From: Methylobacterium sp. FF17
GTDB taxonomy: Bacteria; Pseudomonadota; Alphaproteobacteria; Rhizobiales; Beijerinckiaceae
NCBI RefSeq assembly: GCF_025813715.1
Contig: NZ_CP107533.1
Coordinates: 1 to 64,000 of the forward strand
Direction of reading: 5' to 3'
DNA: 64,000 nucleotides
Part shown: one piece after another, positions 237-17,039 of the stretch
How the letters are laid out: every line of letters starts with the position of its first letter
How positions within the stretch are numbered: position 1 is the stretch's first letter
Notes under the pieces: model-generated
What the model was told of the DNA's origin: nothing
The model's input: only the letters and a program-made list of their open reading frames with translations
The model's database searches: none
Made by a program: the position numbers and the translations under genes

Positions 237-511
237 CCTGATCTCCCGTCACGCCGTTCCGGCTTCCTCTCACTCCGGCACGCCCCTCCCCAAGAAACCG
301 AGAGGTGATGTTTGACCGATCCTGTCGCGAGCGGCCGGGGTTTCAGTCCGATAGAGATACACCTTTAGTGAACTGCGTGGAATAACTGCTTGAGATGGAT
401 TTCTGTCGATTTGCTTCGGAGCGGAGATTGGCACAGCAGAGTGGTCGCTCGGGGTGGGTTTCTGCCCGTCCGCTATCGAGCTGCCAGCCGGCGAAAGCGG
501 ACGGTGGTACA

Positions 512-1003
512 TCACGGCCGATGCACGACGACTTCAAAAGCCTCGTCCAATGAGGGTGGTATGAAGTAAGTGGTGAATAGGTCAAATTCTTCGTTGCTGA
601 CGATAAATTCGTGCTCCCCGCTTTCATTTCTGCGTCGGAGGCGAGCTTTGCAAACCTGATCTGGCACATCGAGGTAGTGAAGCTGGTGCGCGCAGCGCGC
701 ATCCTCGAACAGGGTCCGCATTCACGCGCGGCTATTCAGAGTATTGGCGGGGAAGTCGAGCACGACAGAAAGCCCGTTGCGGAGTAAATCGACCAAATGC
801 GCCCCGATGGCACTTCTCAAGCGTGTCGAGTTGCGAACGTAATCGTCCAAAGTTTTTTGCTCTCCGGGATATAAGCGAGAAAGCCAATGGTCCTCTCGCA
901 CAATTACCGTGCTCGACCGGCGGCCCAACTCGGTAACGAGAGTCGATTTCCCAGCCGCGATCTTCCCGCACACGAGGTGCAGTGTAGTCTTGTTCGTAGA
1001 CAT
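512..1003 (-). pseudogene. P-loop kinase / AAA family ATPase interrupted by an in-frame stop
   Basis: Two adjacent reading segments in the same frame (93 and 69 residues) are separated by a single TGA at 722-724. Together they make a 163-codon protein with Walker A motif GKIAAGKST (residues 13-21), an EDHWLS segment and a C-terminal half beginning MRTLFEDA. Small cytosolic ATP-binding proteins of this length resemble zeta-toxin or nucleotide-kinase folds. Relatives, as I recall them, have tryptophan at the stop position (SRAWMR), so TGG to TGA is the likely lesion. The second half begins with ATG directly after the stop, so reinitiation is conceivable. Most likely a recent pseudogene. Confidence 0.75.
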
Positions 1004-1566
1004 GCATAAGGACCTTGCGAGACGCTAAAACGTCATGATGTTCACACGGACAGCCCCGGCCCGACGCATCAGGCCGGGCGGTTAATTCGTCCGATGGTCG
1101 CGAGAACCGCGATGTGAACAAGGAAGGTCATGCTCGGATGATGCCAGCCCATGCATGTCCGGTCCAGCCTCGCGTGTCCGGTTTCAGCTTTCAAAGGGCG
1201 ATGCGTGAGCGTTGAGGATGGGTCGGGAAGCGGGATGGCTGCTCAGGGTGGGGAGCGGTAGTTGGCGCGACGCCCGGAAGCGGTCCTTCGGCTTCGCGGC
1301 CGATTAGGTCGTTCAGAGCACGACAGGACCAGCCTAGAGACGGACATGCGACATCAATGTTCTCAATAGAAATTTTAAAAAGCAATGACTGAACGGAGAT
1401 CAAGGAAAAAGATTTTGGAAATGCCTTGCATATGCTATTATATTAGCTGTAATTCTAGATTTATGTAATACGTAATTCCGTATAATACTCACAATTCAAT
1501 TCGTAAAAACCCTTCAATGTTGCAGATTATTGAACTTCTCATCAGGCATCATGAAAAATATTTCCA
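1004..1566. other. Intergenic region, no gene seen
   Basis: I see no credible gene. The left part is GC-rich. About 1370-1560 is markedly AT-rich, unlike the surrounding DNA, and lies just beyond the 3' end of the RyR-domain gene. Short open frames here show no coding character. Confidence 0.5.
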
Positions 1567-4299
1567 TCATTTCGCATTTGAATGTTGATATACGACAGCA
1601 GCAAGCCAAACAGCTCGAAAATTAGCCTCGCAAATCCGGCGCCAATAATTTCGGACCATCATTCTGTCTTTCTTACGATCGTCCTCGCGCAACTCGTCGT
1701 AGACCACGAGGCAGGGATGGGTACGCCTTGCGAAGTCACGCATTGGGCCTTTAGTCCATCCATTCGCCAGCCTGTGTGCCATCCACCCGTCATGCTCTGC
1801 CTCTGCAAGTCGCTCGATGTTGTGCTCTACCATCATCTCATAATCTTGCTGTTGTACGACGCCGACGATATCGCTCTGCGCAATACTCATCCCGATGAGA
1901 GATAGTACATCAATGATGCGCCGGGCGGCGGCCACGTTGTCCTCTCTTTCCGCTGCGCCAAGGCTCTTGAAACACTTGTCGATATGCGGATCAATCGAGC
2001 TCCCCGCTTGACGGCGATAGGCGTCATGGATGGCGCCCGCCTGCTCCTCCACGGCTTGGTCGGTTCGAAAGGAGGCACTGGCATCGATGATGCGGGTGAA
2101 GGCCGGCCCATCGACGAACATGTCGAGCTGCCGCGGCGGCGGTAGCGCCGACCGTCGGACGGGGACGCCCGCGGGACTGCGCAAGGAGGCCACGAGTTTA
2201 TCGAGCGACCGAGCCCCATGCCGGTACCCGGGGACGAGCAGGAGCGCGTTGAGTAGGTCCGAGTCGATGTCCAGGCGGCCTTCCCCGGGACCAGCGAGCA
2301 GGCTCCGCACGAGTTGCGCGCGCCTGAGCGGAAAGGTTCCGTCGCGCGGGCGTGCCGTCCCTGCTTCGTCTTCCGCGCGCGGATTGGGTCCTAGTACGTC
2401 AAAATAGCCGTCCAGGCGGCTGACGAAGTCAGGGCCCTTGCACGCTTTGAAGGTCTTGGCCGTCTCGGGCACCTTCCCGTTCCGCTTGAAATGTTCGAAA
2501 GTCCAGCTTGTGCCTCCGGCGAAGATCCAGACGGCTCTCCCGGTCGAGTGGGTGAGTTGCCCGTCCTGGAAGTGGCCGTCCTGCATCGGCGCGATCAGGT
2601 ATTGCAGCCATTTCCAGTGCTCTGAGTCGAACTCGTCCCAGAGTACGACCGGGACGACGCCTTCGAGGGCGCGGTCGCGGCCGCGATGGAACGGGCCCAT
2701 GAGGTCCGAGGGCTTCTCGAACTGCGAGAGGTTGAACTCCAGCCACGAACGCTCGCCGAACAGCTCGAAGGCGAGTTGCTTGACGCCGAACGACTTGCCC
2801 GCCCCCGGCGGTCCGAACACGCCGAGGCATAGCGGTCGCGTGCGCTTGGTGTCCGCACGGTAGGCGCTCATCAGGGCGTGGAGCCCGCGTAGTGCCTCGA
2901 TCTCTTGGGGATCGATAGCGACCATCTTGCCGAACACCGCGTACGGGATCGCCCCGAGGATTTTGGACGGTCCGTGCGTCACGAGCAGCCGAGCCAAGCC
3001 GGGGACCGGGGCGCGCGGTTCGACGCCGTGCGGCACCTGGGCAGCCTCGACGATCGTCCAGTTGTCGTCCGCGCCCGCCCACGGCACCTCGACGCGGGCG
3101 AACGCCTTCACGGGAAGGCTTGCGGCGACCTTGGCGACCCGCTCGACGGGGAACCCCTCGGGTTTCTCCCCGGCGCTGCCGTGGCCCAGGTCGGCCAAGT
3201 CGCGCATCGCCGCGAGCCCGGCGGCAAGGGCTGCCTCGAACCCGGCACGCCGGATCTTCTCCGGATCCCCGTCCTGCGAGTCCCCCTTCCAGCCCGCTTC
3301 CTCCCAGCCGGCATCTTCGGCGCACCAGAGCGCGAGCGCGGCCGCGAAGGCGGTCAGCCGGCCGGGGACCGTGCCGGCGCGGCTCGCGTTCCAGCGGCCC
3401 TCGATCCCGCCGGGATCGAACATCAGGACTGCCCTCGCCGACGCGCCGACCGGGCGGTCCACCCAGAGGACGCCGTCGAGCGACAGGGCGACGACGAGGT
3501 GGCGCGCGCACGCGAGCTTCCTCAGTTGAGGATCGGTCCGGAGCGCCCGCCGCAGGTCCGCCACCGTTCTCTCCCAGGACAGGCCCCGGCTGATCGCCGC
3601 GCCCTCCGCCCGCAGGTCGTCGGCCGACACCAAGCAGACGGTCCTGTCCAGGCCCTCCTCTTCGAGGCGGCTCCACAGGTCGCCCCGCGCGACCGGCATC
3701 GTCGTCTTCAGGATGATCCAAGACGGTGGCCCGGGTAGGACGGTCGGCCTGCCGTCGAGCCCTCGGAACAGCCCGGAATCGTAGCGGGCGCCGAGATTGG
3801 CATCATCGAGCACGAAGACGTCGGCCGGAGGAGCGTCCGCTGCCGCGTCGACTTCCGCGGCATCAACCTCCGCGGCCTGGTCCGGCGCCTCGGCAGGGAA
3901 GGGCGCGGATGCCCGGTCCATCCCCTCGCCGAAGCCCAGCAGCCTCGCCCGCCAAACCTTGCGGGGTTCCCGCTCGGGCTCCCGGTCGTCGGTTGGATGA
4001 GGCGCCCAGGTCGCGTAGGCATGGGTGATCTGGCGCGGTCCCGGCCCGGCCGAAAGCTTGAGCTGGACGGAGATTCCCGGGCCACCCCGATGCGGGGCAG
4101 CAGCCGCGATCAGACGGGCGAGGCCGGCAGCCCCACCCCAGGCGTCCACGAAGCGCACGCCGCGGCTGCCGGCGAGGCCGGGTCTGTCCCCCTCGCCCTC
4201 ATAGAGATGATGGTCGACGACGAGATCCCCGGTCACTACCACGCGCCGCGGCGCCAGGGCCGTCGCTGCCCGCACGCCGTCCGGCGCCGCGCCGCTCAT
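1567..4299 (-). CDS. PfkB-like / AAA+ ATPase / RyR domain protein, probable defence component
   Basis: With the ATG at 4299 the protein has 910 residues. Residues about 18-330 look like a ribokinase/PfkB-type domain (RVVVTGDLVVDHHLYEG near the start; later ILKTTMPVARGDLW and ISRGLSWERT), but the usual GAGD catalytic signature is not evident. An AAA+ domain follows, with Walker A GPPGAGKS (Lys about 502) and Walker B VVLWDEFD (Asp about 555). The C-terminus, about 815-885, is a RyR domain (LAEAEHDGWM, then THPCLVVYDELRE, then DRMMVRNYW). RyR domains in bacteria occur in predicted conflict systems as ligand-binding parts. The gene is divergent from a SIR2-TPR giant gene, so a joint role in immunity is inferred. 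An in-frame ATG at 4410 also exists, but neither ATG has a strong Shine-Dalgarno sequence. Confidence 0.75.
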   Translation of the reverse strand: MSGAAPDGVRAATALAPRRVVVTGDLVVDHHLYEGEGDRPGLAGSRGVRFVDAWGGAAGLARLIAAAAPHRGGPGISVQLKLSAGPGPRQITHAYATWAPHPTDDREPEREPRKVWRARLLGFGEGMDRASAPFPAEAPDQAAEVDAAEVDAAADAPPADVFVLDDANLGARYDSGLFRGLDGRPTVLPGPPSWIILKTTMPVARGDLWSRLEEEGLDRTVCLVSADDLRAEGAAISRGLSWERTVADLRRALRTDPQLRKLACARHLVVALSLDGVLWVDRPVGASARAVLMFDPGGIEGRWNASRAGTVPGRLTAFAAALALWCAEDAGWEEAGWKGDSQDGDPEKIRRAGFEAALAAGLAAMRDLADLGHGSAGEKPEGFPVERVAKVAASLPVKAFARVEVPWAGADDNWTIVEAAQVPHGVEPRAPVPGLARLLVTHGPSKILGAIPYAVFGKMVAIDPQEIEALRGLHALMSAYRADTKRTRPLCLGVFGPPGAGKSFGVKQLAFELFGERSWLEFNLSQFEKPSDLMGPFHRGRDRALEGVVPVVLWDEFDSEHWKWLQYLIAPMQDGHFQDGQLTHSTGRAVWIFAGGTSWTFEHFKRNGKVPETAKTFKACKGPDFVSRLDGYFDVLGPNPRAEDEAGTARPRDGTFPLRRAQLVRSLLAGPGEGRLDIDSDLLNALLLVPGYRHGARSLDKLVASLRSPAGVPVRRSALPPPRQLDMFVDGPAFTRIIDASASFRTDQAVEEQAGAIHDAYRRQAGSSIDPHIDKCFKSLGAAEREDNVAAARRIIDVLSLIGMSIAQSDIVGVVQQQDYEMMVEHNIERLAEAEHDGWMAHRLANGWTKGPMRDFARRTHPCLVVYDELREDDRKKDRMMVRNYWRRICEANFRAVWLAAVVYQHSNAK

Positions 4300-4439
4300 C
4301 GGATGTGCGTTGTGCGCGGGGCAAGGCCGGCGCCTTGGCCGGATCGCCGGCGGGTCGGGCTCGTCCGAGCGGGCGGGCCGCCGCCACACCGCGTCGGCTC
4401 GACGCCGCATCGCAGGACCGTGAGCGCCGCGATGTCCAT
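4296..4439 (-). CDS. Possible 47-residue leader ORF coupled to the RyR-AAA gene
   Basis: The ATG at 4439 has the best ribosome binding site of the region (AGGAGACGGGA before ATG). The frame encodes 47 residues beginning MDIAALTVLRCGVEPT, and its TGA overlaps the ATG at 4299 in an ATGA. This would couple its translation to the large gene in the next frame. It could be a true small gene, a regulatory leader, or the original start of the large protein displaced by an indel between 4410 and 4439. The residues resemble no family I recognise. Confidence 0.4.
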   Translation of the reverse strand: MDIAALTVLRCGVEPTRCGGGPPARTSPTRRRSGQGAGLAPRTTHIR

Positions 4440-4476
4440 TCCCGTCTCCTCGGATACGGTCCTCAAACGCAATCTA

Positions 4477-5398
4477 AGCAGCTTGGTTTGATCTTCTCAA
4501 CAGATGAGCGCTGTGATTCGCTTGGGCCTGGATGGAGGCGAGGCGGACTATGGCGGGCCGATCCAGACTGACGGCGACAGCCGAGCAACGCGGGGAACTG
4601 GCGGCTCTGGCGAGCGGCCCGGATCGTCCGCAGGCGGATCGCGCCCGGGCGATCCTTCTGACGGTGTCGGGCTGGACCAACCCGCGCATTGCGGAGGCGT
4701 TCGGGGTACAGGAGAACACGGTGCGGCTCTGGCGATGCGCCTTCCAAAGCGGTGGCCCGGAGGCGTTGCGCAGCCGCGTATCCGCCGGGCCTGTGCCGGT
4801 GAAGGCCGAGGCCGCCCTGCGCGTGGCGGTCCCGTTGCTGAGCGCGCCGGTGACCGACCGGACCAACGGGACCTTGGCCCGGTTGACCGAGGAGATCGAG
4901 CGCCAGGAAGGCGTCACGATCTCGTGCTCGCAACTCTCGAAGGTGCTGCGCCGAAAAGGGGGCTGCGCTACCGGCGCCCGCGTCACACGCTGAACGGGCG
5001 CCAGGACGCGGATGACGTGGCCCGGGTCGGCCTGCGGCTGATCCTGCGCAAGCAGCAGGCGCAAGCCGGCGACACGGTGCTGTTGTTCGGCGACGAGAGC
5101 GAGGCGCTCACCCGTCCCTACCTCGCCCGCGCCTGGGCGCCGCGCGGGGCCGACCTGCGCGTGCCGGCGCCGGGACAGGCCCGCAAGATCGCTATGCTGG
5201 GCGTTCTCGATCATGTCAGCCGCGCCCTCGTCGTGACGACAGCCCGGACCAAGCGCAGCACCGACTTCATCGCCCTGCTGGAGCGGCTCGATGCCCTCTA
5301 CGGGCCCAAGCCCGGTCAGCCGTCCAAGCCGGTGGTGCTGGTCCTCGATAACGGCCCGATCCACACCAGCAAGCTCAGCCATGCCGCGTTGGCAGCTC
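4477..5398 (+). mobile_element. IS630-family element, 3'-truncated
   Basis: The left end reads CTAAGCAGC, with the TA target at 4475-4476, and aligns closely with the complete copy at 14870-15994. Similarity stops at about 5398, inside the transposase C-terminus, so the right end and its inverted repeat are lost. The 300 bases that follow to the next gene (5399-5695) hold no recognisable gene. They become AT-rich just before the SIR2 gene. The element lies between the two divergent defence genes. Confidence 0.85.
4550..5398 (+). pseudogene. IS630-family transposase, truncated, with a -1 frameshift site
   Basis: The first frame (4550-4993) encodes the N-terminal helix-turn-helix part, including AFGVQENTVRLWR. 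At the run AAAAGGGGG (4954-4962) a -1 shift leads into the catalytic frame, which contains GDESEAL and LVLDNGPIHTS. These supply the first two acidic residues of the DDE triad. The third, in the NDIEGVW block of the complete copy, is absent because the sequence diverges after ALAAR. The protein therefore cannot be an active transposase, though the complete copy elsewhere in the window could act on the remaining end. Confidence 0.85.
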
Positions 5399-5695
5399 GA
5401 TGCGGAGGCCACCGGCTTCCCGTGGCCGATCCGCGACGCATCGGGGGACCCGACGGGCCCGCGCCGCGGCCGATGCCGCGCACCCTGCTCCGCCCGATGC
5501 CGGCCCTCCGCGACTGGCATTCCGCCCAATCGATCCCGGATCGCTACAGGCCAACTTACTGCACTGCACAATCAAATCTCGTCACTCTGCCCTGCCAGAT
5601 CATGACTATCTTGATAATGATCTGACGCGCCCCATGCTTGAGGCGCCGACGCCGGCACACGGCTTTATTTTTTTGTTGCCAAATAGGAAGACATC

Positions 5696-8600
5696 ATGAG
5701 TTCAGGTACAGGCGAGGACGCCGACGCGGAACCAACGGGTGAAGCCAAGAAAGATGGAACAGATGGGTTCGCGTATCTGAACGATTGGCCCTACACGTCT
5801 TTCCATCTGCAATCGACGCTCGACCCGAAACTGATCGAGCGGCACGGCGAGGCGATCCTGTCACGCGCGCTCAACCTCGGGCGCGTGGTCGCATTCGTGG
5901 GCTCCGGCGTGTCGATGAGCTACGGGCGGTTGAGCTGGAAGTCGCTGGTGCAAGCGCTCGCGGAAGACGCGCATCGAGACCATGACAGGGAGGAGTCCGC
6001 CTGGGCGGATCGGGCGAAGAAGACCCTGGATGACCTCGACATCAAGGGCCGATCCCTGGGCGGCGACCTCCAGAGCGGTCGCTATCCCGCCGCCTTCCAG
6101 TTCTGCGAACAGCTCAGCATCGCCGGCGAGAGAAAAAACGGTCAGAAGGAATTTCGAAAAAAAGTGAAGCGCCTGCTGTTCCATGACGCCGGCCATGCAA
6201 AGGTTCTGATTGATGACTTGATTCGCGACTGCGCCGAGATCTCCTGCGTCGCGAAAAACACAGATGCGGAAAAGACTAAAATCGCAAAAACTCGAGACTT
6301 TTACAAAGAAAAATCGGATACGTGGCTGGAAAAACTACACGATTCCCTCTCGATAAAAGCCCTATATGGAAAAATCAATGAGGATGAGAAGACAGATTGG
6401 CGATATTTCTTTGCTATTCATAAATTAAGAGGAGATGAAAAACATTCTCCGGAAGGAGAATTATTTAATTCGGATGGTATTCTGCGCTTGAGTGACGATT
6501 TCGGTAACGACATTTCACGTGATGAGATCGCAAAAGGCATAGTACGAGATCTGGCCCTGAATTTGGGTGACGCCGTGTGTTGCACGAAAGACAACACAGG
6601 CCTCGGTAGATTGCCACTCCATCGTTACCTCGTAACGGCCGTCGCGCGGCTGTCCATCCCGGCAATCGACAAGCTTGAGCAGGTGTTGCCTTCAGGGGAC
6701 AGGTTGTGGAAGCTATTCGACGAGACCAGATCGTTCTTCAATCCCGATCCAGCTCCCGATCGATCGATCCTCGAACGAACCGACTTCGTTCCCCCCGAGC
6801 GTGATCCGCTCGCGATCCTGGCCGACCGGCTGAAGATCGGCCGGTTCATCACCTCCAATTTCGATCTCGACATCGAGCGGCTGATCAGGGATCGCGGGTT
6901 CACCCCGGACGGCCGCGACACGGACGACACGGCGCTGCCCACGTCGAACGAGACCATCAGCCCGCTCGGCGCCACGGCGACCGATTCGGTGTTCAAGACC
7001 AAGAAGGCCACCGACCTGATCGACTTCGCGATCAACGACGCCACGAATACGTTCACGCTCATGCACCTGCACGGCCGCGCCACCGAGACGGACGGCATGG
7101 TCGTGACCGAGCGTGACTACCTGGAGCTCTACCTGCCGCGGGGGCCGGACGGGGAGGTCGTCAACGACGCGCTGGAGATTGGCTTCGGATCGAACCCGCT
7201 GCTGTTCGTCGGCAACGGCATGGGCGAGGACGACATCCTGCGGCCGCTGCGCCAGTTCGTCTCGGAGCGGACCAGCGGCAGCGACCGGCAGGTGATCGCG
7301 CTGCTGCCGGCGCTCGGCAGCCCCGCCCAGGAGATCGAGGAGACCATCGCGATCTACAGCCGGTACGGCGCCTACACGGTCCATTTCGGGCACGCCGACG
7401 TCGGGACGGGGACGGGGACGGCGAAGACCAAGAGCGTCCGGTGGCTGGCGCATACGCTCGCCCTGACCAGCGACCTCAAGGATGTGTTCACGGCGCTCGA
7501 CCAGTGCCTTTCCGGTTCGGCAGACGCGTATAGGCTGTTGAACAAACTTAAAAAGCTGAATAAAAAACTCCACTCAAGCAGCGACGATGATTGGAATGTT
7601 CTTATAGAAAAAGCCGACCGCGATAAATGTAACAAAATTTCGATCAATCTGAAACAAATAAATATAATCGAAAACATTTTCTATATAAATGGAGACTCGC
7701 AGGACCATATTGAGGCCAGATTATTACACCCAACACTTGAGATGGAAGTCCTAAAGGCGGCGTTGTCTGCTGCCATGAGACTGTTCGAGAGAAATGTTGG
7801 AGAACAATCCAGAGACGTGAATGCCATAGCGTCGTCGATCAAGCTGGTTCCAGAACTCGAGTTCGCGATCAAGAGCCTACCGAAAGATCGATCAGGTGAA
7901 GCGGATCCACAATACGAACTCGTTCTCGGAGTCTCCGAGGACGACCGGAATGCGCAGCACCGGAGGGCCTGGCGCCGGGTCGCGCTCGCCTACGTCGCGG
8001 CCCTCGACGGCCTGCCCGACGCGCTGATCGGACTGAGCCTGTGCGCCAAGCTTCTCAGCATCGAGGCGGGCTGGGTGCGGTGGAAGCGCGATTGGCACGC
8101 GCTGCCGATCCCGCGGCTGACGGGCGGACCGTTCCAGGAACTGCTGCTCCGCGGAAAGAATGTCCCCTTCTGCGGGCGGCATCCGCTCGCCTTGCCCGTC
8201 CTCGCCTCGCCCGATCCGGGCGCGCCCGCCGGCAGCCTCCCCGGCAATCACGGTGACCGCTTCTTCGCCGGCGCCCCGTCGCAGATGTTCGGCAGCTTTC
8301 TCAGCGCGCTGCGATACGCGCGCGATCAGCCGGACTCCGCCCTCAAACGCCCTTGGGCGAATCAACGACCCGAAGTCTTCACGCATGACAAGACGCATAA
8401 CAAGGCCGGGCGTCGGATCTTCATCCTTCTCGCAAAGCGCGGGGCCGGGAGGGGCGACTTCTTCGAGAATCTGCGCTCGTCCGAGCAGGTCGAGCGGTTT
8501 ATCGAAGTGTCGTGGCCGAAGGACAAGAATCTGCCGCCCTACGCCGCGGTGGTCGCCCTGAACCTGCGGTTCTCCGCCGAATTCACCTCGGCCTTCGACC

Positions 8601-11600
8601 GCTTGGCCAACATCCTCGTCTACAGCGCGCCAGAGGTCTTCGGAGAACTCAAAGACAGTCCGGCGACCCGCGCGATCGTCGCGGCCGGCCGCGACCTCGA
8701 AAAGAACCGCCTCGGCAAGCTGACGCGGTTGTTCGAGCTCTACAGCGAACACCACGTCCATGCGCGAGCGCGCATCCTCATCGCGATCAACGCCGTCGAG
8801 GTTCTGTTCAACAGCGACGGTCAGCCCAAGACGGGGCAGGCCTCCCGCCTCGTCGAGGCGGTCCTGTCGAAGCGCGCGGATCACGCGCCGATCGACCTGA
8901 TGCTGGTCGGCGTGACCGGCGGCGTGCCGATCATGTTCCGCAAGGACCGACCCGGCCATCGCTATGAGCAGGCATCTGGCGCATTGTGTACCGTCGCCCC
9001 GATCCCGCTGGAGCATCTCGTGCGGGAGAAGGTAGACGAGGAGGGACGGCGAAAGCTCGCGAAAGTCGTCCAGCAGCACGAGATCCGCGACGAGAGCGGC
9101 TGGACCACGACCGGCGACCTCCGGTGGCGACCGACGTCGCCCGGCAGCCCGACCGCGTTCGTCCACCTGCTTCACGAGACGCGGGCCTCGCTGGTGATCG
9201 GCACATTCTTTCCACGGGTCGCCCTCGCCCTGGCCGCCAACCCAGGCAGGCTCTCGAGGGACGCTGCCGGAGCGCCGGAACGGTCGGTGCCCGATCTCGA
9301 TCACGATCGCCAGCGGGAGCTCTCGAAGGCCATCGCCGCTGAACTTGCCGGTAAGCCTTATCTCGCGAAGAACGCCTGCCTGATGGTCCGAAAGACCATG
9401 CTTCTCATTCTGGATCGTGCCGAAGAAAAGAAAATTAACCAAAGAATACCGAAAGATATTTTGAACGAATGCATTCGTGAGCGAACATTCAATGAGATCG
9501 CCCGTGAAATTGCCAGACAACCTGCGGATCAGCCGCCCTCTGACCCACGTCTCTCGTCCCTCGACGCGGACTTCAAGACGGTGTTCGGCCTCTGCGGCGG
9601 CTATCGCCTCGTGCTGTCCATCGCCTGCGCGGCGGCGGACGAGGCGGCCGGGAAGCCGGGATCAGGCGCCTTCGCGGCCGATCGGATCGTGCGTTGGTTC
9701 AGCGATGCCCTGGGCCACATGCACGGCGCGCCGCTGCCCGCGCGCCCCGAGTTGATGATCGGCTACGTGCTCCAGTTCTACGCGACCCGTCACGATTCCA
9801 AAATGCCGTTGCCGGACGCCTGCAAGATCGTACCCACGCTGGCTCAGAGGATGACGAAGGCGAACAAAGCTTGTCTGGGCGGCAAATTCACCAAAGCTGA
9901 GACGATCGTCGAAGATCTTGCCCGTGAGCTCGAAAAAAGATTGGAGAGTCCCGATGGCTGGCGCCTGCAGCAGGTGATCCTGTGGCACCTTGGTGTCACC
10001 GGCAATCCTCTGACCGCGGACGTCCTCGCTGCGGCGCCCAAGATCCGTGAGCTGTGCAGGAACATCGTCAACGAGGCCGATAAAGAAAAAGCGCATACGG
10101 ATGAGCGCAAACGGTCGCGCTGCTGCGTCGTCCTGGTCCAGGCGGCGCTCGACATCCTCGTCCACCGCTGCCTGATCTTCCGTCTTCAGGAGGGCCTGAC
10201 GGATTCGAAGGATGTCCCGGGTCGGTCGGATACGCCAGTCAGGCCGGATGCGCCGTCCGATGGAGAAGAGAACAAGCCGCCCGTCCCCGAACCCCTTTGG
10301 CGCTTCACGCTGCATAGGTTGCTGCAACGCTCGATCTATCAGCGCCTGCACGCCCCGGCGGTCGAGTTCACGGCGGTCGACCAGTACACTCTGTCGCTCT
10401 ACGGGACCCTGCCGAACGACCTGCCCAAGCCGCGGGCCGAGGCGGTCCGCGACCTCGATGCGCTGATCGCTGACTGGACCGGGTTCCCGAAGGACTCCGA
10501 GGCGATCACCACCCCGTCATCCTATCACGACGCGGATCGGGCACGGATGGTGGCGGAGACGGTGGCGGAGGCGGCGAAGGCAGAGGATGCGGCGAAGACG
10601 GCGGCTGCGGCGGCGAAGGCTGTTGCGGTTGATGCGGAGAACGCGGCGGCGGCGAAGAAGGCGGCGGTGGCGGCTCCGGCAGAGAAGGCGGCTGCGGCGG
10701 TGGAGACGGCGCAGAAGGATCGAGAGGTGGAGGCGGCGAGGAAGGAGGCGGCGGAGGCGGCGGCGGAAAAGGTGGCGATACAATCCGCGCAAGGGCTGCC
10801 GTCACGGATGCTGCGAGCCGCCTTCGGCGTCGTGCGGTCGGTCTACTCGGTCGGCGTGGTCTCGCGCTTCGACGATTTCGGCGACTGGAATGGTCCCCGA
10901 TGCGGCTATTTCGAGGAGCACCGCCTCCAGATCCGCTGGCTGCTCAAGAAGGCCGTCGGCCTGTCCTACGAGGACCCCAAAACGACCCGAGTCTTCGAGG
11001 GAGCCGAGTTCGAGCACGACCATCCCGGCACGCCGTTCTTCGCCGAGGAGATCGTGTGGCTCTACAACGAGTGCGGGCTCTTGAGCCTGATCGAAGGCCG
11101 GCTCAACGACGCGCTGGCCCTGTTCGGGCGCGCTCTGGCGGCGGCGGAGCGGATCGAGCCGGGGTCGGAGCACGGACCGTTGCGGTCGCGGCTGATGCTG
11201 AACAAGTCGATCGTCGACATGGAGCGCGGCCGCGTGTCGTCGGCGCGCAGTCAACTCGAGATCGTCGCCGCTCGTCCGAACGAGCATCACGTCATCGGGG
11301 CCGTGGCCAACGGCTACATCGGCGTCTGCGCCCACATCGCCGGGGATTTCGAGACTGCCCAGGCGAAGTATCGTAGCTCCATCAAGAGTCTGCGCGCGTC
11401 CGGGCACTCGCGCGGGGTCGCGATCTTCTCCCGGCACCTCGCTGATCTGTACCGGGCCTGGAGTCCCGACTTCCAGGGCCAAGCCTTTCGGGCGGTGGAG
11501 CAGGCGATCTCGCACGCGGAGAAGGGCGGTCACGAGGATATCCGACAGATCGCCCGCTTGGCCCGCGTCCGGCTGGAGATCAACCGATCCTCAACGAGCC

Positions 11601-11944
11601 CTCAGAGGGACGGCGTCCAGTCGGAACTCGACGATCTCGAGCGCTACGCCGAGGTCATGGGCTTGCCGCGGTTGCTTTGCGAGGTTCTCTACGTGCGTGC
11701 TTCGTTCCTGCTGCAGATCGGCGAAACACGGCATGCCGCCAGTCTGGCGAGAAGATGCCTGCAGCAGGCGACGATGAACGATCTGAAGCTTAGGCAGGTG
11801 TCTACGCTAGGTTTGCTGGCGAGCATCTATCAAAAGCGCGGTCTTCACGATGCAGCCAAGCCGCTATTTGATCGAGCTCGGATGTTTGCTACCCTATGCA
11901 ATTACAGAAACACACGCTTCGCAACAAATCTGCGCGGGGATTAA
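5696..11944 (+). CDS. SIR2-like / STAND-like ATPase / TPR giant protein, probable antiviral effector-sensor
   Basis: 2082 residues; the start has a good Shine-Dalgarno (TAGGAAGACATC before ATG). Residues about 55-560 form a SIR2-like NADase-type domain: VAFVGSGVS (64-73), ITSNFD (about 384-389), LHLHG-like MHLHG (about 457) and LLFVGNGMGEDD (about 502). Residues about 850-1330 resemble a STAND/AAA module with a degenerate P-loop (KRGAGRGDFF, about 915) and a weak Walker B (ILIAINAVEVLF, about 1031). An alanine-rich helical stretch (about 1616-1697) joins to a C-terminal TPR array (about 1780-2075). SIR2-STAND-TPR layouts are known in Avs-like antiviral proteins, where SIR2 depletes NAD after the TPRs sense a phage protein. 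That role is inferred. AT-rich patches give it mosaic composition. Confidence 0.75.
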   Translation: MSSGTGEDADAEPTGEAKKDGTDGFAYLNDWPYTSFHLQSTLDPKLIERHGEAILSRALNLGRVVAFVGSGVSMSYGRLSWKSLVQALAEDAHRDHDREESAWADRAKKTLDDLDIKGRSLGGDLQSGRYPAAFQFCEQLSIAGERKNGQKEFRKKVKRLLFHDAGHAKVLIDDLIRDCAEISCVAKNTDAEKTKIAKTRDFYKEKSDTWLEKLHDSLSIKALYGKINEDEKTDWRYFFAIHKLRGDEKHSPEGELFNSDGILRLSDDFGNDISRDEIAKGIVRDLALNLGDAVCCTKDNTGLGRLPLHRYLVTAVARLSIPAIDKLEQVLPSGDRLWKLFDETRSFFNPDPAPDRSILERTDFVPPERDPLAILADRLKIGRFITSNFDLDIERLIRDRGFTPDGRDTDDTALPTSNETISPLGATATDSVFKTKKATDLIDFAINDATNTFTLMHLHGRATETDGMVVTERDYLELYLPRGPDGEVVNDALEIGFGSNPLLFVGNGMGEDDILRPLRQFVSERTSGSDRQVIALLPALGSPAQEIEETIAIYSRYGAYTVHFGHADVGTGTGTAKTKSVRWLAHTLALTSDLKDVFTALDQCLSGSADAYRLLNKLKKLNKKLHSSSDDDWNVLIEKADRDKCNKISINLKQINIIENIFYINGDSQDHIEARLLHPTLEMEVLKAALSAAMRLFERNVGEQSRDVNAIASSIKLVPELEFAIKSLPKDRSGEADPQYELVLGVSEDDRNAQHRRAWRRVALAYVAALDGLPDALIGLSLCAKLLSIEAGWVRWKRDWHALPIPRLTGGPFQELLLRGKNVPFCGRHPLALPVLASPDPGAPAGSLPGNHGDRFFAGAPSQMFGSFLSALRYARDQPDSALKRPWANQRPEVFTHDKTHNKAGRRIFILLAKRGAGRGDFFENLRSSEQVERFIEVSWPKDKNLPPYAAVVALNLRFSAEFTSAFDRLANILVYSAPEVFGELKDSPATRAIVAAGRDLEKNRLGKLTRLFELYSEHHVHARARILIAINAVEVLFNSDGQPKTGQASRLVEAVLSKRADHAPIDLMLVGVTGGVPIMFRKDRPGHRYEQASGALCTVAPIPLEHLVREKVDEEGRRKLAKVVQQHEIRDESGWTTTGDLRWRPTSPGSPTAFVHLLHETRASLVIGTFFPRVALALAANPGRLSRDAAGAPERSVPDLDHDRQRELSKAIAAELAGKPYLAKNACLMVRKTMLLILDRAEEKKINQRIPKDILNECIRERTFNEIAREIARQPADQPPSDPRLSSLDADFKTVFGLCGGYRLVLSIACAAADEAAGKPGSGAFAADRIVRWFSDALGHMHGAPLPARPELMIGYVLQFYATRHDSKMPLPDACKIVPTLAQRMTKANKACLGGKFTKAETIVEDLARELEKRLESPDGWRLQQVILWHLGVTGNPLTADVLAAAPKIRELCRNIVNEADKEKAHTDERKRSRCCVVLVQAALDILVHRCLIFRLQEGLTDSKDVPGRSDTPVRPDAPSDGEENKPPVPEPLWRFTLHRLLQRSIYQRLHAPAVEFTAVDQYTLSLYGTLPNDLPKPRAEAVRDLDALIADWTGFPKDSEAITTPSSYHDADRARMVAETVAEAAKAEDAAKTAAAAAKAVAVDAENAAAAKKAAVAAPAEKAAAAVETAQKDREVEAARKEAAEAAAEKVAIQSAQGLPSRMLRAAFGVVRSVYSVGVVSRFDDFGDWNGPRCGYFEEHRLQIRWLLKKAVGLSYEDPKTTRVFEGAEFEHDHPGTPFFAEEIVWLYNECGLLSLIEGRLNDALALFGRALAAAERIEPGSEHGPLRSRLMLNKSIVDMERGRVSSARSQLEIVAARPNEHHVIGAVANGYIGVCAHIAGDFETAQAKYRSSIKSLRASGHSRGVAIFSRHLADLYRAWSPDFQGQAFRAVEQAISHAEKGGHEDIRQIARLARVRLEINRSSTSPQRDGVQSELDDLERYAEVMGLPRLLCEVLYVRASFLLQIGETRHAASLARRCLQQATMNDLKLRQVSTLGLLASIYQKRGLHDAAKPLFDRARMFATLCNYRNTRFATNLRGD

Positions 11945-12298
11945 TATTATTAGTTGCGGAATGTCGCTTACCGCTTAAAATATGTAAATCTGGATTGAAT
12001 TGGGAACAAAATTAAACGACTTGGCGATATGATACAACAAATATTGACTCTTCAATGCTGGCCTTTACGCCACTTCCCTAGGCGGTGGTCAATGCCGTCT
12101 ATAGGATCGGCGAAATTGGGACACTCATGCATGATTTTGACGTCCGGATGGACAAGCCGCCTTCCAGAACCGACTAGGCAGCTTTCGGCCGCACTCAGTC
12201 ATTCGTGGCCAATCAGACTGCCAGCAAGCGGACCTTTCGAAGGTCTCAGAAGGGTCGCAAGCAGCCCCTCGCATAGTCAATCCGATTAAGTTTTGACC
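11945..12298. other. Intergenic region, no gene seen
   Basis: This stretch lies between the stop of the SIR2-TPR gene and the IS1380 element. I see no credible gene and no clear terminator. The first 100 bases are AT-rich. A short open frame on the plus strand (12029-12289) is rich in Ser, Pro, Arg and Trp and lacks family resemblance. Confidence 0.5.
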
Positions 12299-12302
12299 CT
12301 AG

Positions 12303-13919
12303 CCCGTCTTATTCACCGGGCGGCAGCGGACTGTCAGTTTTGGGGTCCTGACGAGCGGGGTTGTCCGTCCGATTCGACGCTTGTGGATCAGGCTTGGCTC
12401 GCGGGCGCTGGAGGGACGGTGATGGGTTGGTCGGGGTGTCACAGCCCCCTCGTTCAGGCTGGTGCCGGGGCGAGCGCGACTATGAGGTGGCGCAACAGGT
12501 CGGCCTCGGGGCAGGCGGCAGCGAAGGCGAGGCGGACGCGGGTCGCGGTCTCGCGGATGCGGGCGCCGAGCTTGAGCAGCCGCAGGCGGAGCGTGGCGAA
12601 CTCGGCCTTGGCGAGGCGGTGCGCATTCGGGACGGCATCGCGTACGGTGAGCATCAGCCAGTAGGCGGCGGTGTGCAGCACGAGCCGCATCTGGTTGGCG
12701 GCGGCCGAGCGGCATGAGGTTCGGTCGGAGGCAAGCTGGCCCTTGTGCAGCTTGATCAGGTTCTCGGCCTGCCCGCGGGCGCAGTACAAATCGGCGTAGA
12801 GCCATTCGGGCGTGCCGGTCGTGATATTCGTGACGATGTAGCGGATGTCGAGCCCGAGCCGGGTGGCTTCGATACGAGCGGTCACGCGGCGCTTCTGCCG
12901 CCAGGACTTGGCCGCGTGCGTGGTCTCGGCAAAGCCGCGCTCCGCATCCTTCTTGCCGATCGCCCGCACGACCCGGATGTGGTCGGCGGTCGGCTCGACC
13001 TTGGCAGCCAGCGCCTTGGTGCCGCTGAGACCGAAGATGTAGGCGATGCCGTGGTCCTCACACCAGTCCATCACCTCGGGCCGCCCGTAGTGGCCGTCGC
13101 CGCGCAGGGTGATGGCGGTGTCGGGCCAGTGCCTGCGGATCGCCCGGATCAGGCGGCGCAGATGGCCGCGCACCTCGCAGCCCGAGGGCGTCTTGCCCGG
13201 CCGCAGGATCACCGCGACCGGGCAGCCGGTGGCGGTGTCGTAGACGTGGATCGGCAGAAAACACCGCGCATCATAGTGGCCGTGGAACAGCGAGAGTTGC
13301 TGCTGGCCATGCACCACGTCGCAGGTGTCGTCGATGTCCAGGGTGACGGCCGCGGGCGGCACGGCGTAGCTGGCGCAGTAGAGATCGACCAGCACCCGCC
13401 CGAGGCGGATCAGGTCGCGCAGGCCAGGGGTGTTCTCCAGCCGCGAGACGGTGGGCTGGCTCATCAGGTCGCGCCCGCTCTCGGGCAGGCGGCCGCAGGC
13501 CAGCTTGAAGGCCGGGTCGGCGCGCAGGTGGTCGAGGTCGTCGGCGTCCGCGTAGCCGCAGGCGATGGCCAGGATGCGCGCCAGTACGATCTCCGGCAGC
13601 GGATGCACGACCCGGCTCGGATCGCGGCCGTCAGGGATCACCGCGGCGAGCTTCTCGGCGATGCCGAGCCGCCGGGCGGCCTGAGCCAGGAGCAGCACGC
13701 CGCCGTCCGAGGTCAGGCGTCCGCCATCGAAGGCGGCTGTGAGCTTTCTGCCCCGCACGGATGGAAACGCGAACGCGGCGGCCGTAGGATCAGACATGGC
13801 GGGCGTGGCGGGCTCGATCCGGTGGTGGACGTTGGCGTCAGCACCCAATCCCTAAGCCACATCAATGCCTTACGCTACGCTCGCCACCCCAAATCCACCA
13901 CTCCAGTGAATAAGACGGG
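12303..13919. mobile_element. IS1380-family insertion sequence
   Basis: The ends are perfect 14-bp inverted repeats: CCCGTCTTATTCAC at 12303-12316 and its complement at 13906-13919. CTAG precedes the left end (12299-12302) and TTAG follows the right end (13920-13923). A second pair of the same repeats bounds a short element immediately to the right, and CTAG recurs after that at 14090-14093. The element is 1617 bp and carries one transposase gene. Confidence 0.9.
12454..13797 (-). CDS. IS1380-family transposase
   Basis: 447 residues from the ATG at 13797; an upstream TTG at 13848 is a less likely start. The N-terminus FDGGRLTSDGGVLLLAQA and central DIDDTCDVVHGQQQ, HYDARCFLPIHVYD and LRGDGHYGRPEVMDWCEDHG are characteristic of IS1380 DDE transposases, and the length is typical. 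YADLYCARGQAENLIKLHK supplies the late acidic region. The reading frame is intact, so the element may be active. It can also be expected to recognise the matching ends of the adjacent 166-bp element. Confidence 0.9.
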   Translation of the reverse strand: MSDPTAAAFAFPSVRGRKLTAAFDGGRLTSDGGVLLLAQAARRLGIAEKLAAVIPDGRDPSRVVHPLPEIVLARILAIACGYADADDLDHLRADPAFKLACGRLPESGRDLMSQPTVSRLENTPGLRDLIRLGRVLVDLYCASYAVPPAAVTLDIDDTCDVVHGQQQLSLFHGHYDARCFLPIHVYDTATGCPVAVILRPGKTPSGCEVRGHLRRLIRAIRRHWPDTAITLRGDGHYGRPEVMDWCEDHGIAYIFGLSGTKALAAKVEPTADHIRVVRAIGKKDAERGFAETTHAAKSWRQKRRVTARIEATRLGLDIRYIVTNITTGTPEWLYADLYCARGQAENLIKLHKGQLASDRTSCRSAAANQMRLVLHTAAYWLMLTVRDAVPNAHRLAKAEFATLRLRLLKLGARIRETATRVRLAFAAACPEADLLRHLIVALAPAPA

Positions 13920-13923
13920 TTAG

Positions 13924-14089
13924 CCCGTCTTATTCACGAGGGCGGACGTGATCGGTCTCGACGCGTTGAAAAGGGCGCGTTTTATGAGTTTTTTGGCCGA
14001 GACAATTTCTGTCCGCTGCCGTTTCAGGAAAAGACCAATGCGGTCAGGCGGTTGGCCCACTTTGATCTCGGCGTGGTGAATAAGATGGG
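13924..14089. mobile_element. 166-bp MITE-like element with IS1380 ends
   Basis: Bounded by CCCGTCTTATTCAC (13924-13937) and GTGAATAAGATGGG (14076-14089), the same ends as the adjacent IS1380 with one mismatch in the right arm. It is flanked by TTAG on the left, shared with the IS, and CTAG on the right. It contains no gene and its interior does not resemble the interior of the IS. It is either a non-autonomous derivative mobilised by the IS1380 transposase or the remnant of a second copy. Confidence 0.8.
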
Positions 14090-14173
14090 CTAGCGAACTG
14101 CGTGGAACAACTGCTTGATGTGGAAACCGGACTGGCAGCTTTTCATTCTCCGTCCGACAAAGCTGCCGCCCAA

Positions 14174-14782
14174 TCAACCGTACTGGCGAGCCAACCAGAC
14201 GGTGCGATGACCACAGTCCGGATCTTCCAATACGTGAGCGACAACCTCGAAACCGGTGGCATCGAGCAGGGTTCGATACTCGTCCGGGTCAAGGCTGCCA
14301 TGATAGAGAGGATCGCCCTCCAACTCGCCAATGGCGGCACCTTCGGCAGTCCCGCTCGTGAACATCAGAGCGCTATCCGGTACGGCATGGGCTTGGAAAC
14401 GGGAGAACATGGCGCGTTGATCGTCGGGCGAGAGGTGAAAGAAGCTATCCCAGGCGATCAGCCCTGCGAAACGTCGGCCCAAGGCAAGTTGGCGCATGTC
14501 CGCGAGATGCGCCGGGGCGCCTGGCAGATTGCGCCGGAACAGCGCGAGCATCGTCGGGGTGCCGTCCACCCCCGTTACGTCGAAACCGCGCCGGATCAGC
14601 TCGCCTGCGATCGGCAGGCCCGAGCCGCAGCCAACGTCGAGCACCGCCGCTCCGGGTGGCAGCAGGTTGCAGAAGCGATCAAGCCACGCATTCTCGACCA
14701 AAGTATCGCCGCGCAGCTCGGCCCATGCCGCGCCGTGGCGCTGATAAACGTCGATCACGGAAGCTTCCGGGCTGTCGGTCAT
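14174..14782 (-). CDS. Class I SAM-dependent methyltransferase
   Basis: 202 residues, a usual length for a stand-alone Rossmann-fold methyltransferase. Motif I is VLDVGCGSGLPIAGEL (from residue 48), followed by FDVTGVDGTPTMLALFRR (motif II region, acidic D for SAM ribose) and FAGLIAWDSFFHLSPDDQ (motif IV region). The start is well supported by AGGAGAAAC before the ATG. The substrate cannot be told from sequence; relatives are often annotated as generic small-molecule methyltransferases. It is isolated between two mobile elements, so it may be cargo brought in by transposition. Confidence 0.85.
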   Translation of the reverse strand: MTDSPEASVIDVYQRHGAAWAELRGDTLVENAWLDRFCNLLPPGAAVLDVGCGSGLPIAGELIRRGFDVTGVDGTPTMLALFRRNLPGAPAHLADMRQLALGRRFAGLIAWDSFFHLSPDDQRAMFSRFQAHAVPDSALMFTSGTAEGAAIGELEGDPLYHGSLDPDEYRTLLDATGFEVVAHVLEDPDCGHRTVWLARQYG

Positions 14783-14869
14783 GTTTCTCCTGCGTCACCG
14801 TGAACTGGTGCTTGAACGCCGTATGTGGTGAGACGGCGGACGCCGCTGCCCGCTCCTGCGGCGTGTCTA

Positions 14870-15994
14870 AGCAGAGTGGTGCGGTCTTCTCAACGGATGG
14901 CTGGCGTGATTCGATGGGCCTGACGGCGAGGCGGGGCGGATCATGGCGGGACGATCGCGGTTGTCGGCGACGGCGGCGCAGCGCGCTGAGTTGTCGGCTC
15001 TGGCTGGCGGCGCGGACCGGCCGGAGGCGGACCGGGCGCGGGCGATCCTGCTGACGCTGTCGGGTTGGACCAGCCCGCGGATCGCCGAAGCCTTCGGGGT
15101 GCAGGAGAACACGGTGCGGCTGTGGCGCAGCGCCTTCCAGGCCGAGGGCATCGCGGCCCTGCGCACGCGTGTGGCGTCTGGACCGGCTCCGGTTAAGGCC
15201 GAGGCGGCTTTGCGTGTCGCGGTGCCTCTGCTGAGCGCGCCGGTGGCCGACCGCACCAACTGGACCCTGGTCCGGCTCGCCGAGGAGATCGAGCGCCGGG
15301 AAGGCGTCACGATCTCGCGCGCGCAACTCTCGAAGGTGCTGCGGGCCAAAGGGGGCTCCGCTACCGGCGGCCGCGCCACACGCTGAAGGGCCGCCAGGAC
15401 GCCGAGGCCGTCGCACGGGTCGGCCTGCGCCTGTCCTTGCGCAAGCAGCAGGCACAGGCCGGCGACATCGTGCTGCTGTTTGTCGACGAGAGCGAGGCGC
15501 TGACCCATCCCTATCTCGCCCGGGCCTGGGCGCCGCGCGGGGCCGACTTGCGCGTGCCGGCGCCGGCCCGCAAGATCGCCGTGCTGGGCGCCCTCGACCA
15601 CGCTCGCCGCGACCTCGTCGTGACCACGGCGCGCACGAAGCGCAGCACCGACTTCATCGGCCTGCTGGAGCGGCTCGACGGCCTCTACGGTCCCAGACCC
15701 GGCCAGCCGACCAAACCCGTCGTCCTCGTCCTCGACAACGGCCCGATCCACACCAGCAAGGCCAGCCGGGCCGCCCTCGACGCACGTCGGCATTGGCTCA
15801 TCGTCGAGTGGCTGCCGCGCTATGCCCCCGAACTCAACGACATCGAGGGCGTTTGGCGCGATCTCAAGGCGCATCACCTGGCCCATCGAACCTTCACCGA
15901 GCTCGATGATCTCGACACCACCATCCATGACGCCGTCGCCAACCTGAACCACCGCCGCCAGCGCGATCCGTTGGTCAGCCCACGAATCTCTGCT
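14870..15994 (+). mobile_element. IS630-family element, complete
   Basis: The ends are AGCAGAG (14870-14876) and CTCTGCT (15988-15994), flanked by a duplicated TA (14868-14869 and 15995-15996). Restoring the target gives TGTCTAGACA, a CTAG site as preferred by IS630. The right end falls in the stop codon of the neighbouring minus-strand gene. The element is closely related to the truncated copy at 4477-5398 and is the only complete one of the three IS630-type elements in the window. Confidence 0.9.
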
Positions 15995-15997
15995 TAG
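14943..15997 (+). CDS. IS630-family transposase, two frames joined by -1 frameshift
   Basis: Frame A (14943-15386, 147 residues) has the helix-turn-helix half. A -1 slip at AAAGGGGG (15348-15355) would fuse it to frame B, which ends at 15997. Frame B contains VDESEALT, LVLDNGPIHTS and NDIEGVWRDLK, giving a complete D-D-E catalytic set, and finishes HRRQRDPLVSPRISA. Its stop codon TAG is made from the duplicated TA plus a flanking G. Frameshifted expression is established for several IS630-group elements; here it is inferred from the overlapping frames and the A/G run. Confidence 0.85.
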
Positions 15998-16725
15998 ACA
16001 GTGCGCACGACCCGCTGCGTCGCGGCCGCTTCGGCCTTCGCGCTCGCCTTGGGCGCCGCGACTTCACCAACCGAGCTGTTCATGAACTCGACGCTCCACG
16101 ACCGCAGCTTCCCGTCGTCGAGCGTCATCGTACCCGACAGGTCCTGCGACTTCATCAGCCGTGCGGTGTAGCGTCCATAGGCGGCGTCGCGCTCCTCGTC
16201 GTTCCGGGCCGCCTTCTTTTCCTTGTCGAAGGCCTCCAGCGCCTTTTGCGCCGCCTTCATCGCGTTGAGTCCGGCAACTTCCCTGAACTCCTTGGCGAGC
16301 TCAGGGTCGTCCTTGAACATCTTCTCGATTTTTTTCTTGTAGGGACTGTCGGTCGTGACGTTTCCGGCGCTATCCAACTTGAGATCGATCGGTTCGTCGA
16401 GCGGGATGCCCAGGTTCGTCAGCCGTGAAACGAGGGTGTCGGCCAAGGCTTTGGAGCGATCCTGCACCACCTCGTCGAACGACTTGATGCCGATGGCGCC
16501 CGAGGTCGACGGCGCTCCACTGACGAGGTTGGCGAGCTGAGCCTTCGCGTTGGCACTCAGATCGACCACCGCCGCGGCACCCGCCTTGGCGGACGAGGTC
16601 GTCGTCGGGCTCGCGCCGGTCTGGGTCGCGGTCGACGATGGCCTGGTCGCGGCTTTGCCGCCAACCGAGTGCTCGGACGACGCTGCTCTCGTCCTTTGCG
16701 CCGTCGCTGCTGCTACCGTCGTCAC
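15994..16725 (-). CDS. Hypothetical protein, Ala/Ser/Thr-rich N-terminus
   Basis: 243 residues from a GTG at 16725, chosen because GGGGGG precedes it and AT-rich, promoter-like DNA lies just upstream. The first 70 residues are Thr/Ala/Ser-rich and probably disordered. VDLSANAKAQLANLVSG follows, a short motif often seen in rhizobial proteins of unknown function. The rest is helical and charged (SPYKKKIEKMFKDDPELAKEF). The TAA stop is formed by the IS630 insertion: the restored CTAG target would give TAG in the same place, so the protein is unchanged. I do not recognise a family or function. Confidence 0.7.
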   Translation of the reverse strand: MTTVAAATAQRTRAASSEHSVGGKAATRPSSTATQTGASPTTTSSAKAGAAAVVDLSANAKAQLANLVSGAPSTSGAIGIKSFDEVVQDRSKALADTLVSRLTNLGIPLDEPIDLKLDSAGNVTTDSPYKKKIEKMFKDDPELAKEFREVAGLNAMKAAQKALEAFDKEKKAARNDEERDAAYGRYTARLMKSQDLSGTMTLDDGKLRSWSVEFMNSSVGEVAAPKASAKAEAAATQRVVRTV

Positions 16726-17039
16726 GATCCGTCCCCCCAACCGATCACGCTCCCCTCGCTCTAGTCGAGATAGGGATAAAGTACTCTTAAAGGCCCGGGG
16801 AATATTGAGAATTACGGACGCGGGGCGACGTCGTTCGAGGAGGCCGGCACCTCGACCGACGAGCCCCCCTCGATCCCCTCGCGCGGAATGTCGCCGATCC
16901 CCCGCACCGGCGCGCACGGGCGAAGTTCCAGACGGTGATCGGCCGCCGTCTGCCTCGGGCGCCGGGTCCGCTGCTGGGGCGTCCGTCCGGCCTGTCGGAG
17001 ACCGTGCGCTCTGCTGGGCCCTCCGGGTGTCGCACGGTC

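Follow-up and report, generated by a model that had tools for sequence, protein, structure and literature searches.

Do the two large, divergently oriented genes near the start of this 64,000-nucleotide stretch of Methylobacterium sp. FF17 DNA (the window) form one immune module, or are they two genes of separate ancestry that share a plasmid? One of them encodes a giant protein with SIR2 motifs, and the other an AAA+ protein that ends in ryanodine receptor (RyR) domains, hereafter the RyR-AAA protein (Table 1). The initial annotation had described a 2082-residue protein with SIR2 motifs and a TPR array, divergent from a 910-aa protein with an intact AAA+ core and, among other parts, a RyR domain. 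Both descriptions were confirmed, the first by the Pfam models SIR2_2 (E = 7.7e-11, residues 384-541) and TPR_12, and the second by the ORF, Pfam and an alignment of 38 homologues.

Table 1. Positions of the features discussed, in coordinates of the window
Feature	Position	Strand	Basis or remark
Cargo insert	282..17037	.	sits in conjugative-plasmid-type backbone
RyR-AAA gene	1567..4299	-	intact ORF, 910 aa from ATG at 4299
Second RyR repeat, putative ADP-ribose site	1612..1830 (residues 824-896)	-	Pfam RyR E = 1.1e-14 (824-893)
First RyR repeat, divergent	1879..2061 (residues ~747-807)	-	hhalign against second repeat
AAA+ ATPase core	2080..2922 (residues 460-740)	-	invariant motifs in 38 homologues; Pfam AAA
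Walker A of AAA+ core	2791-2814 (residues 496-503)	-	GPPGAGKS
N-terminal domain, possibly degenerate ribokinase/PfkB-like	2950..4299 (residues 1-450)	-	weak profile match
IS630-family remnant, truncated and frameshifted	4472..~5410	+	fills gap between RyR-AAA and giant genes
SIR2-TPR giant gene	5696..11944	+	intact ORF, 2082 aa
SIR2 domain	5894..7390	+	Pfam SIR2_2; motif conservation in 33 giants
P-loop-like segment RRIFILLAKRGAGRGDFF	8411..8464 (residues 906-923)	+	glycines invariant in aligned giants
C-terminal TPR array	11060..11878 (residues 1789-2061)	+	Pfam TPR_12 E = 6.9e-9 and weaker TPR models

Both genes are plasmid cargo

The two genes are cargo between conserved plasmid segments: the flanks of the insert lie only ~0.5 kb apart in Methylorubrum extorquens DM4 p1METDI and Methylobacterium indicum pVL1_1, both of which were typed as conjugative. 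The reading frames are open and divergent, and that of the RyR-AAA protein has an alternative start at 4410, which gives a 947-aa reading. The element between the genes shares 81.6% identity over 916 positions with a copy at 14866-15774 and contains a Pfam HTH_23 match; similar plasmid records carry IS630 names. It ends short on the giant-gene side. Because this remnant stands between the two genes, a single shared divergent promoter is less likely. The same insert also holds, 3′ of the giant gene, an IS1380-family element (12298-13923) and a second IS630-family element (14866-15997), and a short, truncated-looking AAA_33-type kinase (93 aa, 722-1003, E = 1.8e-15) is found downstream of the RyR-AAA gene. 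The contig to which the window belongs measures 99,759 bp (99.8 kb), and the contig-wide profile searches reported below cover all of it.

The giant carries the residue set of SIR2 NADases

The SIR2 motifs of the giant are GSGVS (69-73), TSNFD (386-390), HG (459-460) and GxxxxEDD (506-513), of which the first two are separated by a long insert. In an alignment of 33 of the 78 giants found, T386, N388, D390, H459, G460, Y475, Y479, G506, E511, D513 and R519 showed no variation, and G69 and S73 were kept in 30 of the 33. The NADase-type residue set (GxGxS, TxNxD, HG and the distal Asp) is present, and the giant probably acts by destroying NAD.

The giant had also been labelled STAND-like and credited with a degenerate ATPase. 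The STAND label found no backing, as Pfam STAND models gave no match in the window's giant or in the four other giants scanned; the central region is long and free of Pfam matches above cut-off. As to the ATPase, the P-loop is indeed altered, RGAGRG standing in the place of GxxxxGK[ST], but the motif is family-wide and not a loss in this protein. G916, G918 and G920 occur in 33/33 giants and R915 in 30/33, and 27 have K at position 919, against R in the other six, among them the window's giant (motif GxG[K/R]G, in 33/33). Because position 920 is always G, canonical GK[ST] is absent from every aligned giant (0/33). Position 921, Asp in the window's giant, is S or T in seven of the 33; an S/T one position further on is also found in adenylate kinases. 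These seven weaken a simple 'dead ATPase' reading of the giants, whose P-loop-like motif may bind nucleotide. Since the altered P-loop occurs in all 33, nothing points to the AAA protein substituting for a lost ATPase. The earlier proposal that it takes over a step lost from the giant's STAND module was rejected, because the P-loop change is common to the aligned giants and none of the giants read in context adjoins a RyR-AAA gene (see below).

The RyR-AAA protein joins an intact AAA+ core to a putative ADP-ribose site

Walker A, Walker B, arginine finger and sensor 2 are all present in the RyR-AAA protein, the arginine-finger and sensor assignments having been made by eye. Every one of 38 family members gave a Pfam AAA match (E<=0.05), and the 38 aligned homologues are invariant at G496, P498, G499, G501, K502 and S503 of Walker A, at DEFD (555-558, with D555/E556 as Walker B), at R628 and at G695/R697/S698. 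For the N-terminal domain, a PfkB-like fold had been proposed, of which a weak profile hint remains: hhalign against a set of eight E. coli PfkB kinases returned E = 0.0014 with a probability of 18%, and single PfkB proteins returned E values of 0.00056-0.59 against 0.026-0.75 for twelve control proteins. Pfam PfkB (PF00294) gave no match in the 38 members at E<=0.05, and where the catalytic Asp of the GAGD motif would align, 19 of the 38 have S, 12 have T and seven have A, none of them D.

The C-terminus has a tandem RyR organisation like that of animal R12, the first repeat being missed by Pfam and recognised by its similarity to the second (hhalign probability 98.5%, E = 1.7e-15). According to the available text of a preprint of May 2026 (PMC13232231), the RyR domains of phages act on cADPR immune signals, which they bind or cleave, and phage RyDEP contacts ADP-ribose through H75, W78, H100 and D117. 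H836, W839, H861 and D878 of the second repeat match this spacing exactly (0/+3/+25/+42), the comparison being one of residue spacing with the positions given in that text. Among 38 homologues, H836, W839 and D878 were conserved in 38/38 and H861 in 31/38, the second His being absent in seven. The best-scoring solved RyR chain, 6uhi, aligned free of gaps across the ligand-residue stretch. Judged by these residues, an ADP-ribose-type nucleotide is a probable ligand of the tandem RyR domain; their conservation supports binding and would be compatible with reading, sequestering or cleaving the ligand.

Sequestering or cleaving an ADP-ribose signal would turn the RyR-AAA protein into a brake, serving either host protection or the counter-defence of a mobile element. 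Such a role would agree with the phage RyR proteins that cleave or sequester cADPR signals (available text of PMC13232231), with the conserved catalytic His/Asp pair of the RyR-AAA protein and with the place of its gene in plasmid cargo, but the large AAA+ and N-terminal parts of the protein argue against it, as do the SLOG-like/TIR fusions and clusters described below, which suggest a host signalling role, and we regard the brake as quite improbable. In phage records, the full 910 aa gave zero matches at E<=1e-5, and the RyR part alone matched 223 records at E<=0.1. An RyR-like segment is thus carried by 223 phage records, and among the 30 matches listed most are annotated as hypothetical protein.

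The pair is seen in this plasmid alone

The giant is rare: with its own genome counted each time, it was found in 4/240 and 6/385 class genomes and in 3/61 relatives, and in none of the 36 other same-genus genomes that form part of the latter sample. The RyR-AAA query matched 6/240 class genomes, full-length in its own genome only and at the RyR end alone in the other five. The RyR-AAA protein was present in 0/7 other giant-bearing genomes, one of which (G307) gave a RyR-end match only, in a different protein. Conversely, the giant was found in 0/20 genomes carrying AAA relatives of the RyR-AAA protein (at least 20 such relatives came from the genome scan); the search of these 20 genomes for the giant included no known giant-positive genome, so that its empty result alone shows nothing, and the same giant profile elsewhere detected the window's genome plus five more. 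In the protein database the window's giant appeared on 10 contigs and its RyR-AAA protein on one, which is a hint only. Plasmid records yielded one giant (Azospirillum lipoferum) and one RyR-AAA relative (Streptomyces) in separate records, and viral contigs a single AAA relative, which lacks RyR, and no giant.

Nine giant loci in eight records (seven genomes and the A. lipoferum plasmid, 175 kb) held no adjacent RyR, AAA-relative, TIR or SLOG-like gene, and their only recurring neighbours were generic ABC-type ATPases, at two of the nine loci. The loci read, here and below, leave out the closest homologues of the two proteins (48% and 36-38% identity). The initial annotation had named a lack of co-occurrence across genomes as a refutation of the exact pair, and neither the seven giant genomes nor the 20 AAA-relative genomes hold both proteins; the exact pair accordingly finds no support. 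Each component is of a known type and the pairing is seen only in this plasmid, where the adjacency of the RyR-AAA and giant genes may reflect chance.

RyR-AAA genes elsewhere stand beside SLOG-like, TIR and STAND-type genes

To describe the setting of RyR-AAA genes, 29 loci were read: 12 encode the N-terminal, AAA and RyR parts together, and the other 17, L092 among them, lack RyR. They derive from the genome scan, in which nine of the 20 AAA relatives listed (L017-L023, L026 and L033) combine all three parts, from plasmids and viral contigs (one each), and from 392 genomes of the phylum of genome G460, of which ten matched; G608, G625 and G771, RyR-end-only matches among these ten, were left out. 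L090, L091 and L093 complete the 12 RyR-AAA loci, and L018, which has almost no flank, was dropped, leaving 11.

Each of the 11 flanked RyR-AAA loci (11/11) has at least one further gene or domain of SLOG-like, TIR or RyR type, versus 0/9 giant loci. A GHR-type SLOG-like domain is adjacent or fused in six of the 11 (L019, L020, where it is fused, L021, L022, L090 and L091), and two more have LSDAT/SLOG matches below the Pfam cut-off (L017 24.6 and L093 17.5 vs 25.4 bits). TIR was detected by Pfam in 5/11 (L021, L023, L033, L090, L091), and a STAND-type protein in 6/11 (L017, L021, L023, L033, L090, L091), five with TPR and one with WD40; NPHP3_N in these neighbours we take to be STAND-type. 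A second RyR protein occurs in four (L017, L019, L026, L093), that of L019 being a TrkA-RyR protein. Among the 120 homologues listed, four (P0065, P0070, P0084, P0105) have a SLOG-like domain fused to the RyR-AAA protein, as does that of L020. In the 17 loci lacking RyR, TIR was absent and an adjacent SLOG-like gene occurred once (L092); in L028-L030 a fused SLOG-like domain occupies the position of RyR.

Fisher values for this comparison, in which L092 was grouped among the RyR loci and a weak L017 TIR match was included, are indicative only, because the neighbour classes were picked after the loci had been inspected, several control loci have short flanks, the controls were scanned by local profiles only with STAND excluded, and the TIR and SLOG profiles derive largely from sequences of the loci themselves. 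The counts given above omit that L017 match (7.5e-6, local profile) and a 'SLATT' label for small genes of L023 and L026 (L026 19.3 vs 26.3 bits; L023 no Pfam match). The GHR-type SLOG profile gave zero matches to solved structures at E<=1, and five GHR-type SLOG-like proteins gave no Pfam match at E<=0.01; the name SLOG for the GHR-type domain therefore relies on its motif, by which we presume the domain to be SLOG.

Several further arrangements were seen in these loci. RelA_SpoT-RyR proteins, in which a (p)ppGpp-synthetase-like domain is joined to RyR, occur near RyR-AAA genes in three different genomes (L017:360-9240, L093:5693-11042 and L026:3271-12403), those of L017 and L093 having a sub-cut-off LSDAT/SLOG match and that of L026 being without it. 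The AAA relatives L028:277-3090, L029:350-3139 and L030:9464-12268 end in a SLOG-like domain instead of RyR, which suggests that SLOG-like and RyR domains could be interchangeable ligand readers on AAA relatives. In L090:2287-11233 and L091:1049-11194, two TIR genes form a compact cluster with one SLOG-like gene and a RyR-AAA gene; the SLOG-like gene carries hydrophobic segments (by eye), and in L091 an opposite-strand gene intervenes between the TIR genes. Other Alphaproteobacteria have RyR proteins near SLOG-like/TIR genes (L053:3327-8742, L051:8884-13009, L052:8056-12372), L053 coming from the window's own family. A literature search at the level of titles returned no paper pointing to a bacterial RyR-AAA/SLOG/TIR cluster; Burroughs et al. 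2015 (NAR) reportedly treats SLOG and SLATT networks, and prior notice of the cluster there is possible. The main text of PMC13232231 contains neither 'SLOG' nor 'AAA'.

The cluster feature seen in homologous loci, a SLOG-like or TIR gene or domain adjacent or fused, is absent in the window. TIR and SLOG-like profiles gave no match on the rest of the 99.8-kb contig, so the window's RyR-AAA gene is without its usual neighbours; a SLOG remnant in the window was considered and rejected (best tblastn E 0.23). The gene could then be an orphan of IS-driven rearrangement, cut off from SLOG/TIR partners and non-working here. The truncation of the IS630 remnant on the giant side, the further IS copies nearby and the contig's zero SLOG-like or TIR matches would fit such a history, but the 910-aa frame is open and its motifs are intact, and we hold this explanation to be highly improbable.

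Roles of the two proteins

The suggestion that the families of both proteins are tied to NAD-linked conflict has held up, with RyR-AAA genes elsewhere lying within ~10 kb of TIR-STAND-TPR genes (L023, L033, L090, L091). This proximity, together with the open, divergent frames and the intact RyR ligand residues of the window's protein, would be expected of a true two-gene module, with the SIR2 giant as NADase in place of the TIR-STAND-TPR neighbour and the RyR-AAA protein as reader of the ADP-ribose that the giant produces. We nonetheless find such a module unlikely, since the two genes were together in 0/7 and 0/20 genomes, the IS630 remnant separates them, giants stand alone at the loci read, and the giant has zero similarity to five STAND-type neighbours by phmmer and giant profile at E<=10. 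Doubtful to the same degree is a general circuit whose NADase (a TIR protein at several loci, the SIR2 giant here) would make an ADP-ribose nucleotide for a tandem RyR-AAA+ motor to read. This tentative proposal would give the bacterial host a sensor of NAD-derived immune signals of the ryanodine-receptor type, of which this plasmid would carry a SIR2 version.

The reading that we prefer, with a probability of about 0.58, is that an AAA+ protein that reads ADP-ribose and a SIR2 NADase that acts on its own, of separate ancestry, travel as joint plasmid cargo. From the observed domains, conserved residues, gene neighbourhoods and the pair's absence in the genomes searched, we infer each of NADase activity, nucleotide binding, a defence role and the direction of signalling. 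The giant would probably be a stand-alone abortive-infection effector, whose C-terminal TPRs would bind an invader protein and thereby release the SIR2 domain, which would then hydrolyse NAD+ to ADP-ribose and nicotinamide. The tandem RyR domain would probably bind an ADP-ribose-type nucleotide from such NADases, upon which the AAA+ ring of the RyR-AAA protein might remodel or threshold a partner.

The RyR-AAA family is rare yet phylogenetically wide and is found elsewhere with SLOG-like, TIR, STAND and other RyR genes; the window holds an unusual member with a SIR2-TPR giant as neighbour. The wider family, with its recurrent links to SLOG-like, TIR and STAND-type genes, is a stronger result than the window's pair, and the window offers a less typical example of the RyR-AAA clusters. 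Such clusters suggest that bacteria couple a RyR domain to an AAA+ motor and keep it next to TIR and SLOG-like genes. If true, this would provide a reader of NAD-derived signals on the host side that can be put to the test, and would bear on the origin of the R12 domain in animal ryanodine receptors.

Comparison with known systems

According to the available text of PMC12931631, Avs5 has an N-terminal SIR2 domain, a mid P-loop region and C-terminal repeats, and the giant resembles it in its N-terminal SIR2 (GxGxS, T[TS]NxD, HG), its mid P-loop region and its C-terminal repeats, present here as Pfam TPR with a putative sensing role. However, the GxGxS and TxNxD motifs start 317 residues apart in the giant and 84 in PaAvs5-1 (same text), and the giant has neither nSTAND3 or another Pfam STAND match nor Walker A GxxxxGK[ST]. 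PADLOC Avs models gave no match in the giants scanned, and Avs5 membership was rejected on the lack of a STAND match, RGAGRG in place of Walker A and the lack of a PADLOC Avs match. With DSR1/ThsA the giant shares a SIR2 NADase-type domain and weak PADLOC matches (ThsA 1.4e-6, Dsr1 3.6e-5), but the match is confined to the SIR2 stretches and the giant has a TPR architecture without SLOG.

Thoeris, which consists of TIR and a SLOG or other effector, is resembled by the RyR-AAA relatives elsewhere that accompany TIR and SLOG-like genes, whereas the window's contig is without a TIR or SLOG-like match; Thoeris is not known to include an AAA+ RyR protein. The window was rejected as a Thoeris member, there being no TIR/SLOG-like profile match on the 99.8-kb contig. 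The MoxR-vWA ternary conflict systems (available text of PMC7159879) are approached by a weak bpMoxR match to the AAA region in 33/38 members (E<=0.05), although the window's protein falls below the Pfam bpMoxR cut-off (20.3 vs 27 bits); 'RyR' is absent from the main text of PMC7159879. Finally, the window's protein differs from RyDEP, as described in the available text of PMC13232231, in that the tandem RyR ends a bacterial AAA+ protein and has a ligand role predicted from sequence alone, and the two are alike in their PF02026 domain and in the equal spacing of four ADP-ribose-contacting residues.
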